Shown: piece by piece, positions 24,730 to 39,809 of the stretch | Layout: each line of letters begins with the position of its first letter | Position numbering within the stretch: the first letter of the stretch is position 1 | Source of the DNA: Paenibacillus phyllosphaerae | GTDB taxonomy: Bacteria > Bacillota > Bacilli > Paenibacillales > Paenibacillaceae | Assembly (NCBI RefSeq): GCF_014192105.1 | Contig: NZ_JACHXK010000001.1 | Coordinates: 372,001-436,000 of the forward strand | Reading direction: 5' to 3' | DNA: 64,000 bases | The notes under the pieces: model-generated | Database searches by the model: none | Told to the model about the DNA's origin: nothing | Seen by the model: only the letters and a program-made list of their open reading frames with translations | Program-made: the position numbers and the translations under genes

Positions 24730-24874
24730 AGGCGTCCCTTCTTTCCTTGGGCGCAAAACAAGTGTTCGCGTCCTTTTTGCTATTAGTTTAACATATTAGG
24801 CGCTGCGTCGACCATAGAATGAATGTGAAGGGGACATGCTCTTCAATTCGACCGATAAAAAGCAGGTGGATGCA

Positions 24875-25204
24875 ATGTATAATACCGTACTCGCTTTTGC
24901 CATTATTGACTTCTTCACGGCGTTCGGGCTCGTCTTCGGCGGCTCCATACTGGCCGGGATCGGCGCTGTCTTCGTCTTCATGCCGCCTTCCACGCTGATG
25001 CTCAAGACCGCCACCCAGTTGAAAATATGGGCCATCGTCGCGGCCGTCGGCGGTTCCATCGATCCGATCCGCGTCATTGAAAGCAATTTTCTAGACGGCC
25101 ACATGTCGCCGGTCGCCCAGCAAATCGGCTATATCGTCTGCGCCTTCCTCGGCGCGCATATCGGTACGGAGCTGATCCGCTGGTTATGCAGGGGGGCGGC
25201 TTAA
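24875..25204 (+). CDS. ytrH: Sporulation membrane protein YtrH
   Basis: B. subtilis YtrH is a SigmaE-controlled membrane protein needed for efficient sporulation, encoded beside dnaE. The 109 residues contain three membrane segments, about 5-35, 52-70 and 80-100, with the motif LKIWAIVAAVGGSIDPIRVIE in the middle as in that family. AGGTGG lies 5 bases before the ATG at 24875; an upstream ATG at 24836 is only 2 bases from a GGGG run and is less likely. ytrI follows 3 bases after the stop, so the two form an operon. Confidence 0.85.
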   Translation: MYNTVLAFAIIDFFTAFGLVFGGSILAGIGAVFVFMPPSTLMLKTATQLKIWAIVAAVGGSIDPIRVIESNFLDGHMSPVAQQIGYIVCAFLGAHIGTELIRWLCRGAA

Positions 25205-25207
25205 CCG

Positions 25208-25723
25208 ATGCGGGTACCGCCTTTCGAACGTTATTCGATCCTGATGAAGAGCGCGGCCAGCTTCGTCGTCGGCACCATTATCGGCGCGATGTTCTACCAC
25301 TCCATCTTCACCTCGAACTTCGAGGCGCTCACGAACACCAATATCGCGCTCGAGGAGAAGTTGGGCGAATTCGAGGCCGAGAACAAGGAATTGAAGCAAT
25401 TCAAGAACAAGCACTCCGTAATCAAGAGCATACAGCCCGTGCTCGAGGACAACCGGGATTCCGAAGGCCAGGCGATCGTCTTCGACGAGTTAACCAAGAC
25501 GGAACTGAAGAAGCGCGTCCGCGATTCGCTCAAGGCGATGCTCGGACGCAACATATACGACATCGATTCGGATGCGAAGCTGGTGCGGCTGCTGCTCGAC
25601 CAGAAAGTATACACCGCCGTGATCGAAAAAGATTATACGATCGAGATCCGAACCGTCCTTGTCGTCGAGAACGTGCTGCGCGTCTGGTTCAGCGCAGAGC
25701 AGTACAAGCGTCCGCCAAGCTGA
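25208..25723 (+). CDS. ytrI: Sporulation membrane protein YtrI
   Basis: Partner of YtrH; in B. subtilis YtrI is a SigmaE-dependent membrane protein that helps forespore development. The 171 residues have one N-terminal membrane helix (about 13-33), then a charged coiled coil (about 40-75, NIALEEKLGEFEAENKELKQFKN read in register). A small mixed C-terminal domain follows, with KDYTIEIRTVLVVENVLRVWFS. It lies immediately after ytrH. In Bacillus the next gene is nrnA; here a terminator follows and nrnA is missing. Confidence 0.82.
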   Translation: MRVPPFERYSILMKSAASFVVGTIIGAMFYHSIFTSNFEALTNTNIALEEKLGEFEAENKELKQFKNKHSVIKSIQPVLEDNRDSEGQAIVFDELTKTELKKRVRDSLKAMLGRNIYDIDSDAKLVRLLLDQKVYTAVIEKDYTIEIRTVLVVENVLRVWFSAEQYKRPPS

Positions 25724-29267: not shown

Positions 29268-29609
29268 CTAGACGCTGCCCGTAATCGCGCGAAGCGTGTT
29301 AGCCAGAATCCGATTCACGTCATCGTAGATAACCGCCAGGCGCCGCTCCGCTTCGAATACCCGATGAATGAGCGGATGGGCGTCCAGCTCCTCATATAAC
29401 CGGTTCATGCTCGCCAGTTCGGCTTCTTCGGGTTCTTCTCCCGCCATGATCTGCTGTTGAAGGGCAGTCTGCCGCTCCCTGAACCGGTCGAGCAGCCGCT
29501 TCGCTGCCGGATCCGCCGCCGCTTCGGACAGCACCTGGTTGAACGATTGCGCTTCCTCGCCTTCCTGAATCGCCCTGGCAAGCTCATAAGCTTTGTCGTA
29601 TATATTCAT
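29268..29609 (-). CDS. yheA: YlbF/YmcA-family protein, YheA-like
   Basis: A 113-residue, almost wholly helical protein beginning MNIYDKAYELARAIQEGEEA, the typical start of the YlbF/YmcA/YheA group. Helices at about 3-18, 20-30, 35-60 and 63-105 carry many Gln/Glu and heptad-like positions. YlbF and YmcA act with YaaT in the RNase Y-associated Y-complex; YheA's own role is unknown. GAGGAG lies 9 bases before the ATG at 29609; the longer open frame is spurious. Its divergent position beside yheC/yheD-type genes matches the B. subtilis yheA-yheD neighbourhood, which supports the name. Confidence 0.85.
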   Translation of the reverse strand: MNIYDKAYELARAIQEGEEAQSFNQVLSEAAADPAAKRLLDRFRERQTALQQQIMAGEEPEEAELASMNRLYEELDAHPLIHRVFEAERRLAVIYDDVNRILANTLRAITGSV

Positions 29610-29696: not shown

Positions 29697-29724
29697 CACC
29701 AAGGTATAGATGTCCTCATATGAT
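29697..29724 (+). promoter_or_regulatory. Candidate SigmaK-type promoter of the ATP-grasp cluster
   Basis: CACC at 29697-29700 is separated by 16 bases from CATATGAT at 29717-29724. This fits the SigmaK pattern mACm-N16-CATAnnnT and, more loosely, a SigmaE -10. It lies about 78 bp before the first YheC/YheD gene. It is short and could occur by chance, but late mother-cell expression suits the gene family. Confidence 0.5.
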
Positions 29725-29801: not shown

Positions 29802-31169
29802 ATGCTGAAATCCAAAGTCGCTGTCCAGGTGACCAGTTCGGGCATTCTTCCCGAGGACACGGTCATGCTGGGCGAAGCTTACTTGAAATCGTGGAAAATT
29901 CCGCAAGGCCAGCCGGTGACGCTCAAATTCGGCTCGATGCGCCAGCCGGTCAAGGTCGTCGCGGTAGAAAAATTCGACGGCATGCGGATTGGCCAAAGCC
30001 TAGCCAGACGTATGGGCATTCTGGCCAATTGCCAGCTGCGTCTCCAATATCGCAGCGATACGTCCTCCCTTGCGCTAGGACCGCTCATCGGCATTCTGAT
30101 CAGCCGGGACGATCCGAGCATGCCGGATAAACCGTTCGGCTCGATCACGCTGTTCTGCAAGGAGCTGGTCGACGCCTGCGCAGTATATGGTGCGCATGTC
30201 TACTTCTTCACGCCCGATCATATCGGTTCCAGCTCGAATATAGTGGAGGGCTGGGTCTATGCCGGAGGTTGGCGCAAGACGTTCCTGCCGGCTCCGGATG
30301 TCATCAGCAACCGGCTGACCTCCAGAAAGCTCGAGAACAAGCCGAGCGTCCAGCAATACCTGAAAGAAGTGAAGTCGCGTTATCTTACGGCCGTCTTCAA
30401 CGAGAAATTCCTCGATAAGTCTGAAGTATTCGAGGCGCTGAAGAAAGATGCTTCCGTCGGCAAATACTTGCCCGAATCGCATGTGCTTCGGAATTATACG
30501 ATGCTGAAATCAATGTGCTCGAAATATCATACTGTCTTCTTAAAGCCCGTGCGCGGCAGTCTTGGCAAAGGCATCATCCGGATTACGCGCCTCGAACAAG
30601 ACAGCTATCTTGCGCATTACGCCATGGTGGGCGGCACGCGCAAGCAGCAGTTCACGAATCTGCTAAAGCTGTTCTCGTCGGTCTCCGGAAAGATGAAATC
30701 CGTCCGCTACCAAATCCAGCAAGGCCTGAATTTGATCGATATCGGCGGGCGCCCGGTCGATTTTCGCGCGCTGGTCCAGAAGAATGAGCTCGGCAAATGG
30801 GTGATCACGTCCATCGTCGCCCGCACGGCCGGCAGCCATCACTTCGTCTCCAATCTTGCGCGGGGAGGCACGCTTAGCACGGTGCGAGAAGCCGTTGCGA
30901 AGTCTAATCTCTCCTCCGCCCAAGGCCATGACGCGCCTGGCCGCCTGCAGCGGGCCGCGCTTGATATCGCCAATGGCATCGATACCCATATTCCCGCGCA
31001 TTTCGGCGAGCTCGGCATTGATCTGGCGCTGGATTCGAATGGCCGCGTCTGGCTGCTCGAGGTGAATTCCAAGCCGTCCAAAAATGATAATACACCGCTT
31101 GAAGGGCAGAAGATCCGCCCTTCGGTCCGTAATCTGATCCGGTACTCCAGACATCTGTCCGGTTTCTAA
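29802..31169 (+). CDS. YheC/YheD-family ATP-grasp protein 1, with N-terminal domain
   Basis: A 455-residue protein related to B. subtilis YheC/YheD, annotated as endospore coat-associated. Residues 1-90 form a beta-rich N-terminal domain, followed by LGPLIGILISRDD (about 92-104). The ATP-grasp fold starts at FNEKFLDKSEVFEAL. LKPVRGSLGKGIIRI is the glycine-rich nucleotide loop, VDFRALVQKN the central strand, and LGIDLALDSNGRVWLLEVNSKP carries the magnesium-binding Glu and Asn. ATP-grasp enzymes join a carboxylate to an amine or thiol through an acyl phosphate; the substrate here is unknown. AAGGAG lies 6 bases before the ATG. It is the first gene of a six-gene run. Confidence 0.88.
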   Translation: MLKSKVAVQVTSSGILPEDTVMLGEAYLKSWKIPQGQPVTLKFGSMRQPVKVVAVEKFDGMRIGQSLARRMGILANCQLRLQYRSDTSSLALGPLIGILISRDDPSMPDKPFGSITLFCKELVDACAVYGAHVYFFTPDHIGSSSNIVEGWVYAGGWRKTFLPAPDVISNRLTSRKLENKPSVQQYLKEVKSRYLTAVFNEKFLDKSEVFEALKKDASVGKYLPESHVLRNYTMLKSMCSKYHTVFLKPVRGSLGKGIIRITRLEQDSYLAHYAMVGGTRKQQFTNLLKLFSSVSGKMKSVRYQIQQGLNLIDIGGRPVDFRALVQKNELGKWVITSIVARTAGSHHFVSNLARGGTLSTVREAVAKSNLSSAQGHDAPGRLQRAALDIANGIDTHIPAHFGELGIDLALDSNGRVWLLEVNSKPSKNDNTPLEGQKIRPSVRNLIRYSRHLSGF

Positions 31170-31208
31170 CCTAGCGGGCACGAAGGCATCAAGGAGGCGA
31201 AGGGACGC

Positions 31209-32411
31209 ATGACGCAAACAAACCGACCGGCGCTGGCGATACTCGTAAGCGATATCCGCGTGTTGGCTGAACGCGAGCAAGGAATTGTCCGAATCCGCAT
31301 GCCTGAGGATGACTTCTGCCGGAGGCTGTGCGAGTCCGGAAGCCAATTCGGCCTTCGCGTCTTCGTATTGCCCGTCGCTTCCGCTGCGCCCCGCCCATCC
31401 GGCGCCGATGGCTATGTGCTCGAAGACGGCCAGTGGCGGCAGACGCGCTGTCCGCTTCCGGATCTGATCTATGACCGCGCATTCTGTTCCGGACGGGTCG
31501 AGCGAGAGGCCAAACAGCTGCTGCTCGAACAGTTAGCGGGCCTGCGCCCGAATGTTCAGCTTGGCAGCCCGCTTCCCGACAAGCTGACGATGCATCGCAT
31601 GCTGCAGACGGATGAACGGCTGAAGCCGCTCCTTGCTCCCACCGTCCATTACCGCAGCGGCGTGCAGCTTGCCGCCCTGATGAAGCGTTGCCCGCATGGT
31701 CTATTCCTTAAGCCGGCCGCCGGTTTCCAAGGAAGAGGCACGCTTTGGCTGCGCCCAAGCGGGGAAGGCTGGCAGGCCGATGGACGTCAGCTAACGAATC
31801 GTCCGGTCAGTCAGACTTTCGCTAACTTCGACGCCATGTCCGCATGGACCGACCGCTTCGTCCGATCTACCCGCTATATCGTTCAACCCTATTTGCAGTT
31901 AACCGGCGAAGACGGCAACGCCTTTGATCTTAGATCCCTCTTACAGAAAGACGGGCTGGGCAGGTGGACCATGACCGGCATTGCAGTCCGAGTAGGCGCC
32001 CCCGGCAGCATTACGGCTAATCTGCATGGCGGAGGCGCGGCAAGTCCTGCGCTCAAGCAGCTCACCCTGCGCTTCGGCGAAGCAAGGGCTCGGTACCTGC
32101 TCACGCAGGTGCAACAGAGCTGCCTTCGCGCGGCAGCGATTCTAGAGCAGCAGATTGGCCGCATTGGCGAGCTTGGCGCCGACTTCGGTATCGATCGCAA
32201 GGGCCGCTTATGGCTGCTCGAGCTGAACGGCAAACCCGGACGGCAATCCTTCGAGCATGATGAGGGCCTTAGCCGGCAGGCGATGCTTAAGCCGCTGGCC
32301 TATGCCCGATATCTCTGCAAGCGCAGTTTGCCGCTTCACCTAAGCCTATCTCCGCCGCTTCCGAACGCCGCCAATCCGGAGCAATCGTCCACCGTCCACC
32401 CGAATCCTTAG
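31209..32411 (+). CDS. YheC/YheD-family ATP-grasp protein 2, short form
   Basis: A 400-residue paralogue without the N-terminal beta domain; it begins directly with PALAILVSDI. The ATP-grasp elements are FLKPAAGFQGRGTLWL, FDLRSLLQKDGLGRWTMTG, GSITANLHGGG and ELGADFGIDRKGRLWLLELNGKPGRQ, so the magnesium-binding Glu and Asn are intact. It is the most divergent of the five: the usual FN-(x)-FF-K-ADP-lid start is replaced by SPLPDKLTMHRML, and the C-terminus has a Pro/Ser/Asn-rich tail of about 30 residues. AAGGAGG lies 11 bases before the ATG, 39 bp after gene 1. Confidence 0.86.
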   Translation: MTQTNRPALAILVSDIRVLAEREQGIVRIRMPEDDFCRRLCESGSQFGLRVFVLPVASAAPRPSGADGYVLEDGQWRQTRCPLPDLIYDRAFCSGRVEREAKQLLLEQLAGLRPNVQLGSPLPDKLTMHRMLQTDERLKPLLAPTVHYRSGVQLAALMKRCPHGLFLKPAAGFQGRGTLWLRPSGEGWQADGRQLTNRPVSQTFANFDAMSAWTDRFVRSTRYIVQPYLQLTGEDGNAFDLRSLLQKDGLGRWTMTGIAVRVGAPGSITANLHGGGAASPALKQLTLRFGEARARYLLTQVQQSCLRAAAILEQQIGRIGELGADFGIDRKGRLWLLELNGKPGRQSFEHDEGLSRQAMLKPLAYARYLCKRSLPLHLSLSPPLPNAANPEQSSTVHPNP

Positions 32412-32435
32412 GAGATCCAACCAGGAGGTTCATCC

Positions 32436-33809
32436 ATGAGTTTGACATCGTGTCACGTCCACTTCTCACCGCATAGCGACAAAGTCATCCACTTGTCGAG
32501 TCCGCTCCTTAAATCGCTCAAGTTCGCCGGCAAGAAAACCGTTCAGCTTAAGCTTGGGAAAGAAACCATACGCGCGACGGTCCGGCCGATCCGCAAGGCG
32601 GGCCACCATCTCTATTTGTCCGCCGGCATCCGCCAGTCGATGCGCGTGCCTAAGAGAGGCCAGGTCTCCCTGATGCAAGTCGAGGAAGGCGAACTGCAAT
32701 TCGGTCCGCTCATCGGCATATTGACGGATGCCGGCGACAAAAGCAATCCGAACAGCCCGTTCGCCGGACGGACCGGCTACATCCGTCAATTGTTGAAGAC
32801 GGGCGAGAGCAAAGCGTATCTGTTCGCTTTTACGCCGCGGGACATTAATTGGCAGTACAATCTGGTGAACGGCTACTTCCTCAACAGCAGCGGCGGCTGG
32901 TACCGCCAGCAGGTACCGCTTCCCGACGTCGTGTACAACCGCCTGCCAAGCCGCAAAGCCGAGCACTCCTCGACGATCATGAACTTGCGGGAGAAGTTCA
33001 TCAAGAACAAGATCCCGTTCTTCAACTGGAGCTTCTTCAATAAATCCGACGTGTATAAAATGCTCGACGAGGACGTTGAAGCGCTGCAGCATCTGCCGGA
33101 ATCGGTGAACAATCCGAAGCCGGAGAAGATCAAGGAGATGCTCGAGAAGCATCAATTCATCTACTTCAAGCCAACAGCCGGCAGCCTCGGAATCGGCATC
33201 TATCGGCTGACCTACCACCCGACCCGCGGCTACTTCGCCCGTTACCGCCGCAACGGCGGCAATGTGCTGCTGCGTTTTACGACATTCAATTCCCTGATGC
33301 GCATGCTGCAGGCCAGACACGGCAGCACGCTTAGCCAATATGTATGCCAGCAAGGCGTTCGGCTGATCGAGATCGACGGATGCCCGATCGACTTCCGCTT
33401 CCATATGCACAAGGACGGCAATAATGAGTGGGTTCCTGTCGGAATCGGGGCCAAGAAGGCCGGCAAAGGCAGCGTCACGACCCATATCAAGAACGGCGGC
33501 CAGCTGCTGACGCCGGAGCAAGCGCTCAAAGCTACGTTCGGCAGCAGATCGGATGAGGTGCTCGAGAAAGCCAAAGAGGTATCGATCAAGTTGTGCGAAG
33601 CAATCGAGCGCAACTTCCCGCATACGCTCGGCGAACTCGGGCTGGATATCGGCATCGACAAAGACGGCGAGATCTGGATGTTCGAAGCGAATGCCAAACC
33701 GGGACGGTCGATCTTCGGTCACCCCGCGCTTAAGAGCCAAGGCCGCGATTCCTACTCCCACATCATCGATTACTGCTTGTATTTGACCCGCTTCAAAGGG
33801 AGGGAGTAA
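32436..33809 (+). CDS. YheC/YheD-family ATP-grasp protein 3, with N-terminal domain
   Basis: A 457-residue paralogue with the same layout as protein 1. A beta-rich domain (about 1-90) ends in FGPLIGILTDAGD, then comes a Rossmann-like segment (YLFAFTPRDINW). The ATP-grasp core has FNWSFFNKSDVYKML, YFKPTAGSLGIGIYRL, IDFRFHMHKDGNNEW, GSVTTHIKNGG and LGLDIGIDKDGEIWMFEANAKPGRS. Note that the phosphate loop reads SLGIGI where most have GKGI or GRGI, so a basic residue is missing there. AGGAGG lies 7 bases before the ATG. Gene 4 begins 3 bases after its stop. Confidence 0.88.
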   Translation: MSLTSCHVHFSPHSDKVIHLSSPLLKSLKFAGKKTVQLKLGKETIRATVRPIRKAGHHLYLSAGIRQSMRVPKRGQVSLMQVEEGELQFGPLIGILTDAGDKSNPNSPFAGRTGYIRQLLKTGESKAYLFAFTPRDINWQYNLVNGYFLNSSGGWYRQQVPLPDVVYNRLPSRKAEHSSTIMNLREKFIKNKIPFFNWSFFNKSDVYKMLDEDVEALQHLPESVNNPKPEKIKEMLEKHQFIYFKPTAGSLGIGIYRLTYHPTRGYFARYRRNGGNVLLRFTTFNSLMRMLQARHGSTLSQYVCQQGVRLIEIDGCPIDFRFHMHKDGNNEWVPVGIGAKKAGKGSVTTHIKNGGQLLTPEQALKATFGSRSDEVLEKAKEVSIKLCEAIERNFPHTLGELGLDIGIDKDGEIWMFEANAKPGRSIFGHPALKSQGRDSYSHIIDYCLYLTRFKGRE

Positions 33810-33812
33810 CCG

Positions 33813-34952
33813 ATGGAGCAGGACACCCTTGAATCCAGAGCTGATGCGGAGGTGCTGGCGAAGCCGCCCGTGCTTGCCATCCTGACCATCGAGGATGACC
33901 TCCAGCTGTTCCGGGGAAACCTGAGCAATTTTGCCGACCTCATCCGTACAGGCAAGGAGCAGGGCTTCCTCGTTTACGTCCTGACCGTCAAGCAGCTGAA
34001 GTTCAAGCGCAAACAGCTCATCGGCTATACGCATGACGAGAGGACCAATACCTGGATGTCCCAGAGTTTCCCTTTTCCGGACTTGATCTACAACCGGATT
34101 CCGCTGCGCGAGGATGAGCTTCAACCGCATGTTCGGGCGAAGCTTGCCGCCTGCCAGGCGCACCCGACGCTCCAGCTGTTCAATCCGAAGTTCTTCAATA
34201 AGTGGTCGTTGTTCAAATGGCTGGAGAAGTCGAAGACCACCCGCCCTTACGTGCCTTCCACGCGCCGCATGCTGAACCGCGAGGAGCTAGGCCTAATGAT
34301 CGCCGAGCACTCTTATCTGTACCTGAAGCCGGTGAGCGGCAAAGCAGGCAAAGGGATCATGACGATCAAGGTCCGTCCCGGCAATGTACTGCCTTACCGG
34401 CTCAAAGTGCAGGCCAGCAAGAAAAGCCTCTCCTACAATTGCGGAACGCTGAGCAAGCTGTGGATGCGCGTGAAAAGGGAAAGCGGCGGCGAGCGTTACA
34501 TTGCCCAACAAGGCATCCAGCTTGCCTCCTTCGAGGAACGGCAGTTCGACCTTCGCGTGCTCGTGCAGAAGAACAATCGCGGCCAGTGGGATATTACGGG
34601 GATCGGCGCCCGGATCGCCGGCCACTTAAGCATCACGACCCATGTGCCCCGCGGAGGAAGCATCGAAGATCCCGAAAAACTGCTTGTCAGCGTATTCGGC
34701 CAAGAACAAGCGCGTAATATTCTAGTAAAAGCGCGTCAAGCCGCAGTCGTCATTGCCAAGCAAATCGAGCGCGGCGCCGGGATGAATCATGCCGAGATGT
34801 CGATGGATCTGGGGATCGACGAGGCGGGGAACATCTGGTTCTTCGAAGCCAATGCCAAGCCGATGAAATTCGATGAGCCTGAAATTCGCAAACTGTCGCT
34901 CATCCGCATTTTTCAATACAGCCGTTACTTGATGCAGACCAAAGTCAAATAA
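33813..34952 (+). CDS. YheC/YheD-family ATP-grasp protein 4, short form
   Basis: A 379-residue paralogue lacking the N-terminal beta domain; a 25-residue leader precedes LAILTIEDDLQLFRGN. Core motifs are FNPKFFNKWSLFKWLEKS, YLKPVSGKAGKGIMTIK, FDLRVLVQKNNRGQWDITGIGAR, SITTHVPRGGS and MSMDLGIDEAGNIWFFEANAKPMKF, with the acidic and Asn metal ligands in place. Only 3 bases separate it from gene 3, so the two are almost certainly cotranslated. That suggests one long-form and one short-form protein may work as a pair. Confidence 0.88.
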   Translation: MEQDTLESRADAEVLAKPPVLAILTIEDDLQLFRGNLSNFADLIRTGKEQGFLVYVLTVKQLKFKRKQLIGYTHDERTNTWMSQSFPFPDLIYNRIPLREDELQPHVRAKLAACQAHPTLQLFNPKFFNKWSLFKWLEKSKTTRPYVPSTRRMLNREELGLMIAEHSYLYLKPVSGKAGKGIMTIKVRPGNVLPYRLKVQASKKSLSYNCGTLSKLWMRVKRESGGERYIAQQGIQLASFEERQFDLRVLVQKNNRGQWDITGIGARIAGHLSITTHVPRGGSIEDPEKLLVSVFGQEQARNILVKARQAAVVIAKQIERGAGMNHAEMSMDLGIDEAGNIWFFEANAKPMKFDEPEIRKLSLIRIFQYSRYLMQTKVK

Positions 34953-34975
34953 TCGACGTCTGGAGGCGGTCTAAG

Positions 34976-35407
34976 GTGAAAGTACTGCTGCTTGCTCCCG
35001 AACGCTGGGATGCGATAAAAGAGAAGCTTATCGCCTTCGCCGGCAAGTACGGCGAGAAACGCCTGACCGCCTCCGGCATCGCTTTGCTGCGAAAGCTGGA
35101 TCCGGCTAAACATCCGGAGGCCGGCATCGCCGTCGCCATAGAGGATGGCGAGCTCGCGGGCTTTGCCTTCATTCTGGAGAACGGCGAGAAGGCATGTTTG
35201 ATCGTCGTGCGCGACGACCTGCGCGGCCGCGGCATCGGCTGCGCTCTACTGCGCGCGCTTCAAACTCGCTTCGGGCGTATCGTCTGCCACGTCGCCGCCG
35301 ATAACCCGTCCAGCATGCAGATGTGTTTCCGCGCTGGCCTGACTGCTGTCTCTCTGGAGCGGGGGCCAACAGGAAAGCCGACGCTTCGGTTCGAATCCGG
35401 CCGCTAA
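34976..35407 (+). CDS. GNAT-family N-acetyltransferase inside the ATP-grasp cluster
   Basis: A 143-residue GCN5-related acetyltransferase. The acetyl-CoA pyrophosphate loop is VRDDLRGRGIGCALL (R/Q-x-x-G-x-G pattern, about residues 81-95), preceded by the strand GFAFILENGEKACLIV and followed by the helix-strand HVAADNPSSMQMCFRAGL. The start is GTG with GGAGG 9 bases upstream. It lies 23 bp after ATP-grasp gene 4 and 34 bp before gene 5, in the same direction. The context suggests acetylation of an amine on a substrate or product of the ATP-grasp enzymes; the acceptor is unknown. Confidence 0.82.
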   Translation: MKVLLLAPERWDAIKEKLIAFAGKYGEKRLTASGIALLRKLDPAKHPEAGIAVAIEDGELAGFAFILENGEKACLIVVRDDLRGRGIGCALLRALQTRFGRIVCHVAADNPSSMQMCFRAGLTAVSLERGPTGKPTLRFESGR

Positions 35408-35441
35408 TAACGGATATGTATGGCTCTTGAGGAGGAAACCA

Positions 35442-36659
35442 ATGGTTCAGCCCGTGCTCGGAATTATGACCTTATATTTGAATGATGCCGGCCGCCTTGA
35501 GGAGAGATCGATCTACCAGAAAATGTCGATTGTTGGCCGGAGGCTGGGACTCGACATCTTTGTCTTCACGCCAGATGACGTAAACTACGAAACCAACAAA
35601 ATACACGCCCATATCTACGATTCGCAGCTGAAAACATGGAGCCGCAAATGGCGCTCCTTCCCGCATATGATCTTTGACCGGTGCCGCATTCAGCGCAGCC
35701 CAAGGTTCGAACGTCTGCAGAAGTTCCGCAAACAGTACGGCCATCTGACGTTCTTGAACCGCGTCCTGCGCAACAAGTATACGGTCTATCGCACGCTCAA
35801 GCTCGAGAGCGTCTTTCGTCCGCATCTCCCGGATACGCGGCTGTATGAGAGCAGCTCCGATCTGTCCTATATGATCCGCAAATATCCGCTCGTCTACTTG
35901 AAGCCGATCAACGGCACGGGCGGGCGCGGCATTCTGCGCATCGAGAAGCAGCGGGATAATACCTACCTGATTCAGGGACGCGATCAAAGCCGGCGCATCA
36001 TCAGCCCCCAACGCGTTCCGCTGTCCTCGCTGAACAGCAGGCTCGCTTCCTGGAACCTGAAAGAGAACCGGTATTTGGTCCAGCAAGGCATCCAGCTGAA
36101 GCTTCCTAGCGGCCGCGTCCATGATTACCGGATGCTCGTGCAGAAGAACGGGCAAGGCAAATGGGAGGTTACCGGCTGCGCCGGGCGGGTCGGCCCGCAG
36201 GGCAGCATAACCTCGAATTTGCATGGCGGCGGCGAAGCGGTGACGATGCTCGATCTGATGAGGCAGTGGATCAGCAGCGAGGACGTTATCGATACTGCCA
36301 AACAAAAGGCGGAAGACATCAGCCTGAAGATCGCCGCGCATCTCGAGAGTACGTATGGAAGGCTGTGCGAGCTTGCGCTTGACCTTGCGATCGACCGCAG
36401 CGGCCATATATGGCTGATCGAGGTGAATCCGAAGCCGGCACGCGAAGTGTTCGTTCAAGCCGGCGAGAAGGAAATCTACCGTACGGCGATTACCCGTCCG
36501 CTGGAGTATGCGGTCTGGCTCTATGGCCAGAAGAAGCGCCGACAGACCGCGAGCTCCTCGCTTTCTTCGGCCAATCAACCGAGCCAATCGGTTCACAAGA
36601 CGAATACGAGCACCTATACGAAAGAAAAAACGGTCCAGGACGATCCCAGCCTGTCATAA
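35442..36659 (+). CDS. YheC/YheD-family ATP-grasp protein 5, short form
   Basis: A 405-residue paralogue without the N-terminal beta domain, beginning MVQPVLGIMTLYLND. Motifs are FLNRVLRNKYTVYRTL, YLKPINGTGGRGILRIEK, HDYRMLVQKNGQGKWEVTG, GSITSNLHGGG and ELALDLAIDRSGHIWLIEVNPKPAREVF, all consistent with an active ATP-grasp site. The C-terminal 40 residues are Ser/Thr/Gln/Lys-rich and probably disordered. GAGGAGG lies 6 bases before the chosen ATG; an earlier in-frame start adds five residues and is less likely. A terminator overlaps its last codons, ending the cluster. Confidence 0.88.
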   Translation: MVQPVLGIMTLYLNDAGRLEERSIYQKMSIVGRRLGLDIFVFTPDDVNYETNKIHAHIYDSQLKTWSRKWRSFPHMIFDRCRIQRSPRFERLQKFRKQYGHLTFLNRVLRNKYTVYRTLKLESVFRPHLPDTRLYESSSDLSYMIRKYPLVYLKPINGTGGRGILRIEKQRDNTYLIQGRDQSRRIISPQRVPLSSLNSRLASWNLKENRYLVQQGIQLKLPSGRVHDYRMLVQKNGQGKWEVTGCAGRVGPQGSITSNLHGGGEAVTMLDLMRQWISSEDVIDTAKQKAEDISLKIAAHLESTYGRLCELALDLAIDRSGHIWLIEVNPKPAREVFVQAGEKEIYRTAITRPLEYAVWLYGQKKRRQTASSSLSSANQPSQSVHKTNTSTYTKEKTVQDDPSLS

Positions 36660-39239: not shown

Positions 39240-39809
39240 CTAGAACACTTTTTTCGTGTCCCGATCGGCCTTGATGATCTCCACCGCTTCCTTAAACCGC
39301 AGCGAGTGCACGATCTCCCGCTCCCTGAGGAATTTCAGGCTATCCTGTAGATCGACGTCATCCGTCATGTCGATCAGCCACTGGTAGGTTGCGCGCGCTT
39401 TCTCTTCCGCGGCAATGTCCTCGTAGAGATCGGCGAGCGGATCGCCTTTGGCTTGGATATAAGCTGCCGTCCATGGCACGCCGCCTGCATTCTCGTAGTA
39501 CAGCGCATGATCATGGTTCGCATAATGCGGCCCCAGTCCAACCGCGATCAGCTGCTCCGGCGTCGCGTCCTTCGTCAGCTTGTAGATCATCGTCGCGATC
39601 ATCTCGAGATGCGCGAATTCCTCCGTTCCGATGTCGGTCAGCAAACCAATGACCTTGTCCGGAATCGTATACCGCTGATTTAGATAGCGCAGCGCTGCAG
39701 ACAGCTCCCCGTCCGCGCCGCCATACTGCTCGGTCAGAAACTTCGCCATTCTCGGATCGCATTTGCTGACACGAACCGGATATTGCAGCTTCTTCTCATA
39801 TACCCACAT
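39240..39809 (-). CDS. cotJC: Spore coat protein CotJC, manganese catalase family
   Basis: A 189-residue ferritin-like/Mn-catalase-fold protein of the spore coat, starting MWVYEKKLQYPVRV. Metal-binding Glu and His residues expected in this family are visible: YGGADGELSAALRYLNQRY, IGTEEFAHLEMIATMIY with the E-x-x-H pair, and AAEEKARATYQWLIDM. In B. subtilis CotJC is made in the mother cell and needs CotJA for assembly. It is the last gene of cotJABC, about 35 bp after cotJB. Catalase activity is not established for every member. Confidence 0.92.
   Translation of the reverse strand: MWVYEKKLQYPVRVSKCDPRMAKFLTEQYGGADGELSAALRYLNQRYTIPDKVIGLLTDIGTEEFAHLEMIATMIYKLTKDATPEQLIAVGLGPHYANHDHALYYENAGGVPWTAAYIQAKGDPLADLYEDIAAEEKARATYQWLIDMTDDVDLQDSLKFLREREIVHSLRFKEAVEIIKADRDTKKVF

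Follow-up and report, generated by a model that had tools for sequence, protein, structure and literature searches.

The window analyzed here, a 64,000-nucleotide stretch of the Paenibacillus phyllosphaerae genome (contig NZ_JACHXK010000001.1, positions 372,001 to 436,000, assembly GCF_014192105.1), carries a row of five consecutive ATP-grasp genes of the YheC/YheD (YheC/D) family, here called Y1 to Y5, with a gene for a GNAT acetyltransferase between Y4 and Y5 (Table 1). We put the probability at about 0.55 that the row represents one half, that of the ATP-grasp enzymes, of an ancient mother-cell module of the spore coat, in which the ligases and the acetyltransferase would act on an acceptor in the coat. 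The other half would consist of cotE and a gene for a COOH-NH2 ligase (PF14395), located on contig C4 of the same genome.

Age and order of the gene row

An earlier note on this DNA had described five consecutive YheC/D genes of 379-457 residues and a GNAT gene. The open reading frames (ORFs) and Pfam searches agree with this, as Y1 to Y5 score 216-277 bits against PF14398 (ATPgrasp_YheCD; cut-off 26.8 bits, E 4.9e-64 to 2e-82) and the acetyltransferase matches PF00583. The enzymes of the row are thus members of a known family. In total, ten PF14398 matches were found in the window's genome, five of them outside the cluster, and each of the 59 genomes compared, spanning 31 genera and comprising 58 relatives in addition to the window's own, has between 4 and 18.

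In 20 related loci, chosen from the 58 relatives for showing arrays and not a random sample, the order Y1-Y2-Y3-Y4 is kept in all 20, Y5 comes next in 19, and the GNAT gene lies between Y4 and Y5 in 11. The loci from other families and other classes are the best matches listed and, again, not a random sample. Among 33 in-class loci outside the window's family (omitting L058, which repeats genome G028 of locus L008, and L060, which belongs to the window's family), Y1-Y2-Y3-Y4-GNAT was found in 16, two of these with Y5 behind; the remainder have a different order (six loci) or fewer genes (11 loci, including four solitary Y5 genes, the neighbors of which gave no functional hint when inspected by eye). 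In a FastTree phylogeny of 185 proteins, Y3, Y4, and Y5 are each separated from the rest by a single branch (98, 97, and 99, respectively), and the group labels change 6 times in all vs 110 times when shuffled; Y1 and Y2 show four changes each, owing to deeper arrays and one stray copy. The fixed order in other families together with the tree indicates that each row position is an old orthologous group and that the duplications are older than the families compared. The hidden Markov models (HMMs) for the groups, the GNAT protein, and the N-terminal domain described below were trained on part of what they later matched.

Genome G028 has a second, inverted Y3-Y4 pair directly after its cluster (46% and 44% identity to the window's proteins), and a run of about ten YheC/D genes was observed in L148 (G211), from another class of the phylum.

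Reduction in the Bacillus subtilis group

For the Bacillus loci, named genomes were scanned with a Bacillus Y3 alignment and the best 80 of 286 relatives were compared; B. subtilis itself is absent from these, and close relatives are present. A divergent YlbF-family gene followed by Y1-Y2-Y3-Y4 was found in 58, the same gene followed by Y2-Y3 alone in 14, and other variants in 8. The 14 reduced loci belong to B. nakamurai, B. velezensis, B. siamensis, B. sp. ISL-51, B. atrophaeus, B. halotolerans, B. spizizenii, B. tequilensis, B. sp. N13C7, B. inaquosorum, B. paralicheniformis, B. glycinifermentans, B. pumilus, and B. stratosphericus. In the genome of B. nakamurai, the Y2 and Y3 pair are the only PF14398 genes, and its Y3 matches the Y3 profile at E 4.6e-159. 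As the reduced loci keep the YlbF-family gene, Y2, and Y3, we assign yheC as the orthologue of Y2 and yheD as that of Y3, with the B. subtilis group keeping a remnant. The row had been called a five-fold expansion in the earlier note; the comparison points the other way, the larger set being the older state, of which the B. subtilis-group loci retain Y2-Y3 only.

The B. subtilis yheC-yheD pair thus shares with the window two orthologous genes and, in the close relatives examined, the divergent YlbF-family neighbor. It differs in that the window's genome adds Y1, Y4, the GNAT gene, Y5, and the cotE-linked PF14395 ligase. B. subtilis YheD, a PF14398 protein, is called an endospore-coat-associated protein and is described as a coat protein of unknown function that encases the spore (PMC7911427).

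Linkage of cotE to the PF14395 ligase

The PF14395 ligases, which we take to be of the glutamine-synthetase type, were sought with an HMM built from five Pfam-confirmed seeds, and CotE with an HMM built from four seeds, two of them Pfam-confirmed; both models were partly trained on their own matches. In six ligases scanned against Pfam, including that of the window's genome, PF14395 was the sole match at E 0.01. With these models, seeded with Pfam-scanned members, 18 array regions from other classes gave a PF14395-type ligase in 14 and CotE in 9, and four of them (L143, L144, L149, and L150) show the order CotE-Y1-ligase-Y2-Y3-Y4-GNAT. Of the 33 in-class loci from beyond the window's family, six have the ligase inside the array and five have CotE. 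That arrays of other classes sit with cotE and this second ligase is new here. A literature search, covering titles and abstract openings among the matches listed, with subscription papers mostly out of reach, found no paper on CotE with an amidoligase and no account of the constant gene order, of the reduction in the B. subtilis group, of cotE being linked to PF14395, or of the difference in CotE tails described below. Iyer et al. reportedly predicted in 2009, from amidoligase gene neighborhoods, a role in peptide modification, and the Pfam text presumably places YheC/D in spore-wall modification.

Within the class, PF14395 was identified in 76 of 121 genomes, all of them among the 90 that are PF14398-positive; the genomes without it are 14 PF14398-positive and 31 PF14398-negative ones (Fisher test, 2.5e-18, kinship ignored). 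An upstream cotE on the same strand as the ligase gene is found in 75 of the 76, at a distance of up to 3 kb in 61 and of 3-8 kb in 14, the exception being G126. The window's genome has a single such ligase, outside the window, between cotE and a mutS-like gene. In the ligase-lacking genomes, mutS starts about 100-770 bases past cotE in seven of nine cotE regions (L173, L174, L180, L185, L187, L188, and L192; B. nakamurai is included), and in the other two (G135 and G147) no mutS was found within about 1.5 kb of cotE. In three ligase-positive controls mutS is, as expected, not directly behind cotE. Because mutS follows cotE too closely for a ligase gene in seven of the nine, the gene was probably lost in place.

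Predicted expression and co-occurrence with sporulation genes

Upstream of Y1 we identified a conserved promoter-like site of the sigma-K type. The pattern AC-N16-18-CATAnn[A/T]T, based on what we take to be the letters of the sigma-K consensus, was sought from -250 to +60, with shuffles preserving base content alone. It was found at Y1 in 21 of 22 sequences from the window's taxonomic order (0.84 in shuffles), in 16 of 24 from the class (1.05 in shuffles; 15 of 22 minus two stray copies from the window's own genome), and in 54 of 66 Bacillaceae-type loci (5.2 in shuffles). In contrast to the window, the B. subtilis group, which has lost Y1, shows it in none of the 13 loci tested out of 14 (0.57 in shuffles). 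A chance match is unlikely given the shuffles and the 374 upstream regions of internal genes, of which only 8 contain the pattern. The longer local form CACC-N10-TGTCCTCATANNAT has one mismatch-free occurrence in the genome, and the shorter pattern one occurrence in the window (0.27 expected). The site fits the published description of sigma K promoters, with five bases in the -35 element, ten in the -10 element, and 14-16 bases between the two (PMC517825). Based on this site, late mother-cell expression of the row is predicted.

Among the 121 class genomes, the window's own included, 87 have both SpoIVA and PF14398, 25 neither, six SpoIVA only, and three PF14398 only, so that PF14398 is present in 87 of 93 SpoIVA genomes vs 3 of 28 others. 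cotE was found in 93 of the 121, which are exactly the SpoIVA-positive set. The three PF14398-only genomes are all without SpoVAD, and one of them (G027), from the window's own family, lacks orthologues of the cluster (Y3-profile E 3.5e-32 vs 1.2e-203 in the window's genome). SpoVAD is present in five of the six SpoIVA-only genomes, and SpoIVA looks broken in G060. The promoter site, the co-occurrence with SpoIVA, and the cotE neighbors in relatives all bear out the link to the spore drawn in the earlier note.

Catalytic residues and the N-terminal domain

Eight catalytic-type columns (two Lys, D-x-R, E..D, and E-x-N), the individual roles of which we presume, are kept in 201-204 of 204 sequences, in an alignment that omitted seven odd loci (L040, L042, L047-L050, and L053) and ORFs below 320 residues. 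The weakest columns within single groups are the E-x-N glutamate in Y2 (40 of 43) and one glutamate in Y3 (43 of 45). All eight are intact in the window's five proteins, including the terminal E-x-N motifs already pointed out from the sequence. Differences in specificity are suggested by six columns that are at least 80% fixed in each group, with residues that differ among some groups, as in H323/K340/H350 of Y3 vs L324/R341/N351 of Y1. Based on the kept columns and the group-specific residues, Y1 to Y5 all look active and probably differ in specificity, in line with the earlier suggestion that different units are ligated; the sequential action and the spore-surface product that the earlier note also proposed would be putative. 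Y2 shows no group-specific fixed residue, and its identity to proteins from five same-genus genomes is 41-50% vs 68-85% for Y1, Y3, Y4, and Y5.

The N-domain HMM matches Y1 and Y3 of the window and leaves Y2, Y4, and Y5 unmatched, as had been noticed for the first and third genes. The two architectures thereby distinguished are real; they are not peculiar to the five-gene row, since the yheC-yheD pair already has both (Y2 without the domain, Y3 with it). The domain is predicted to be a double-psi beta barrel like that of p97. In a sequence search, 11 of 12 matches were PEX1, p97, or TER94 chains, none of them significant (best E 0.29). What the domain shares with the N-domains of Cdc48/p97 and PEX1 is the predicted fold; here it is fused to an ATP-grasp ligase. 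A sequence search for solved structures of the YheC/D family with the Y3 profile gave none at E 0.01.

The acidic tail of CotE

In most genomes the C-terminal tail of CotE is acidic. Of the 93 cotE genomes, 90 were read for this tail (all but G060, G123, and G156), and the non-acidic end in G138, perhaps a frameshift, was counted unchanged. In ligase-positive genomes (n = 74), the last residue is D in 53, L in 12, E in 3, and another in 6, and the end is of the DDL type in 42. The G..EE end was seen in none of these 74 vs 8 of the 11 genomes that have YheC/D without the ligase (Fisher test, 3.4e-9, kinship ignored); the other three of the 11 have Q, F, or I as the last residue, and in two of these the tail is serine-rich. 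In the five genomes without YheC/D, the last residue is H, Q, or F.

Proposed mechanism and alternatives

In the proposed module, the row would be transcribed late in the mother cell from the sigma-K-type promoter. Judging from the fold, each of the five ligases would join a distinct carboxylate and amine in an ATP-driven amide bond, amides being favored over esters because two unrelated carboxylate-amine ligase families share one module. Y1 and Y3 may dock a protein or peptide through the N-domain, the COOH-NH2 ligase would add a further amide bond, and the GNAT protein would acylate a free amine. Most likely the acceptor would be a protein of the coat or a peptide bound to it. Among single candidates CotE ranks first, with its acidic tail at the C-terminus, to which the cotE linkage and the tail ends point, but as a tentative choice only. 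A more specific version, in which the YheC/D and COOH-NH2 ligases extend or cross-link the CotE C-terminus while the p97-like N-domains dock the tail, appears slightly more doubtful still. In the Pup-PafA and tubulin tyrosine ligase (TTL) systems, a carboxylate-amine ligase acts on an acidic, disordered protein tail. The proposed likeness to both lies in these features; the ligase here matches PF14395 and no Pup ligase family, and Y1 matches the TTL family weakly (3.8e-5, 23.5 bits vs a cut-off of 20.1).

Several observations speak against this proposal. The association of tail and ligase rests on few independent losses, because the ligase-less cases fall in few clades. PF14398 matches are lacking in five genomes that do have SpoIVA, CotE, and SpoVAD, which makes the family dispensable for sporulation. 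No sigma-E or sigma-K pattern was found in the 300 bases upstream of cotE in the window's genome, which is unhelpful to co-control with the row. In B. subtilis, yheC and yheD are under sigma-E control with stimulation by SpoIIID (PMC517825); YheD needs SpoIVA for its deposition, and no two-hybrid contact of YheD with the morphogenetic proteins tested is reported (PMC7911427). These YheD findings and the five genomes without the family weigh most heavily. Assembly of B. subtilis CotH requires a negative last residue of CotE (PMC4618286), and the unstructured B. cereus CotE tail, with 15 negative residues, makes meshwork formation calcium-dependent (PMC11980541). These roles give a second reason for conservation of the tail, and mean that a modification there would matter.

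The most serious competitor to a coat acceptor, unlikely but well worth keeping in sight, is that the ligases produce, by sequential amino-acid ligation with a GNAT cap, a small metabolite or non-ribosomal peptide that is stored in or below the coat, CotE being only a co-regulated neighbor. The fixed order of distinct orthologous groups would suit such a pathway, as would the weak matches, far below cut-off, to MptN (Y1, 1.8e-8) and glutathione synthase, and the short gaps, which leave no space for a precursor-peptide gene between the six genes; the linkage of cotE to the ligase, seen in 75 of 76 genomes, and the occurrence of the N-domain fold in protein-binding domains lean instead to a protein acceptor. 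It seems improbable that the enzymes attach amino acids to a polysaccharide of the coat or crust, a role proposed for ATP-grasp enzymes associated with sugars. This reading draws on secondary matches to PF14397 (ATPgrasp_ST; Y1 7e-11, Y5 5.7e-11, Y2 3e-8), but PF14397 is a related fold and such matches therefore say little, and no glycosyltransferase is among the six products of the operon (a glycosyltransferase-like gene was seen by eye in L155, from another class).

We consider it very improbable that the Y proteins are mainly structural, polymerizing coat proteins with the enzyme fold as a relic: strong self-interaction of YheD, which encases the spore, is described (PMC7911427), but the catalytic-type columns are kept over all five groups. 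Five paralogues side by side and extra stray copies in the genome might also suggest a recent lineage-specific expansion of yheC/yheD providing more of one activity. The old groups in the tree and the same order in other families rule this out almost entirely, and the conserved order in relatives goes against the scattered duplicates by which the earlier note would have been refuted.

Gene row, flanking genes, and further copies

The features of the row are listed in Table 1. The intergenic gaps from Y1 to Y5 are, in order, 39, 24, 3, 23, and 19 bases. A precursor-peptide gene between the six genes, considered for these gaps alone, has no room in them.

Table 1. Features of the YheC/D row and its surroundings (positions in the window).
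Feature	Position	Strand	Evidence
YlbF-family gene, syntenic divergent neighbor	29268..29609	-	PF06133 3.4e-25
Sigma-K-type promoter site CACC-N16-CATATGAT, ahead of Y1	29697..29724	+	
Y1: YheC/D ATP-grasp with N-terminal domain, 455 aa	29802..31169	+	PF14398 E 3.9e-78; tree; N-domain HMM
Y1 N-terminal domain, residues 1-100	29802..30101	+	N-domain HMM i-E 7.4e-29 (Y1 is a member of the HMM seed)
Y2: ATP-grasp without N-domain, 400 aa; assigned yheC orthologue; fastest evolving	31209..32411	+	PF14398 4.9e-64
Y3: ATP-grasp with N-domain, 457 aa; assigned yheD orthologue	32436..33809	+	PF14398 2e-82
Y3 N-terminal domain, residues 1-98; predicted double-psi beta barrel	32436..32729	+	
Y4: ATP-grasp, 379 aa; N-domain undetected by HMM	33813..34952	+	PF14398 3.6e-75
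GNAT acetyltransferase, 143 aa	34976..35407	+	PF00583 2.4e-7; same place after Y4 in many relatives
Y5: ATP-grasp without N-domain, 410 aa; sister group of Y2	35427..36659	+	PF14398 2.3e-81

The operon is flanked by spore-type genes (24836-25723 and 39240-39809) encoding YtrH (PF14034), a YtrI-like protein (by position), and a Mn-catalase-family protein (PF05067), which is reminiscent of CotJC. Elsewhere in the genome, a short YheC/D gene of 261 residues (C5:487619-488347; L041:3096-3881, minus strand) lies between genes that by eye are gyrB- and gyrA-like; a YheC/D-like sequence in the Paenibacillus origin region is reportedly the subject of a 2014 title by Iiyama et al., which would fit this copy. 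A stray 438-residue YheC/D gene on contig C16 (L042:2437-3753, plus strand) has its own N-domain (HMM i-E 4.9e-4) and lies near a gene for a collagen-repeat protein (PF01391 6.6e-9; L042:573-1172, minus strand), the two perhaps forming a spore-surface pair. In addition, we identified a stray copy with stop codons inside the match (C1:546179-546850) and a short fragment (C3:72116-72460).

Implications

Viewed as what is left of a module with fixed gene order and ties to cotE and a second ligase, the yheC-yheD pair acquires a suggested type of reaction and a candidate acceptor, and its remnant status accounts for the B. subtilis group being ill suited to such a search. If the CotE tail is indeed the substrate, the system would be a convergent parallel to tubulin-tail and Pup ligation, and it would have been overlooked because the B. 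subtilis group has lost most of it. Covalent modification of a protein that scaffolds the coat would be relevant to spore-coat assembly and resistance.

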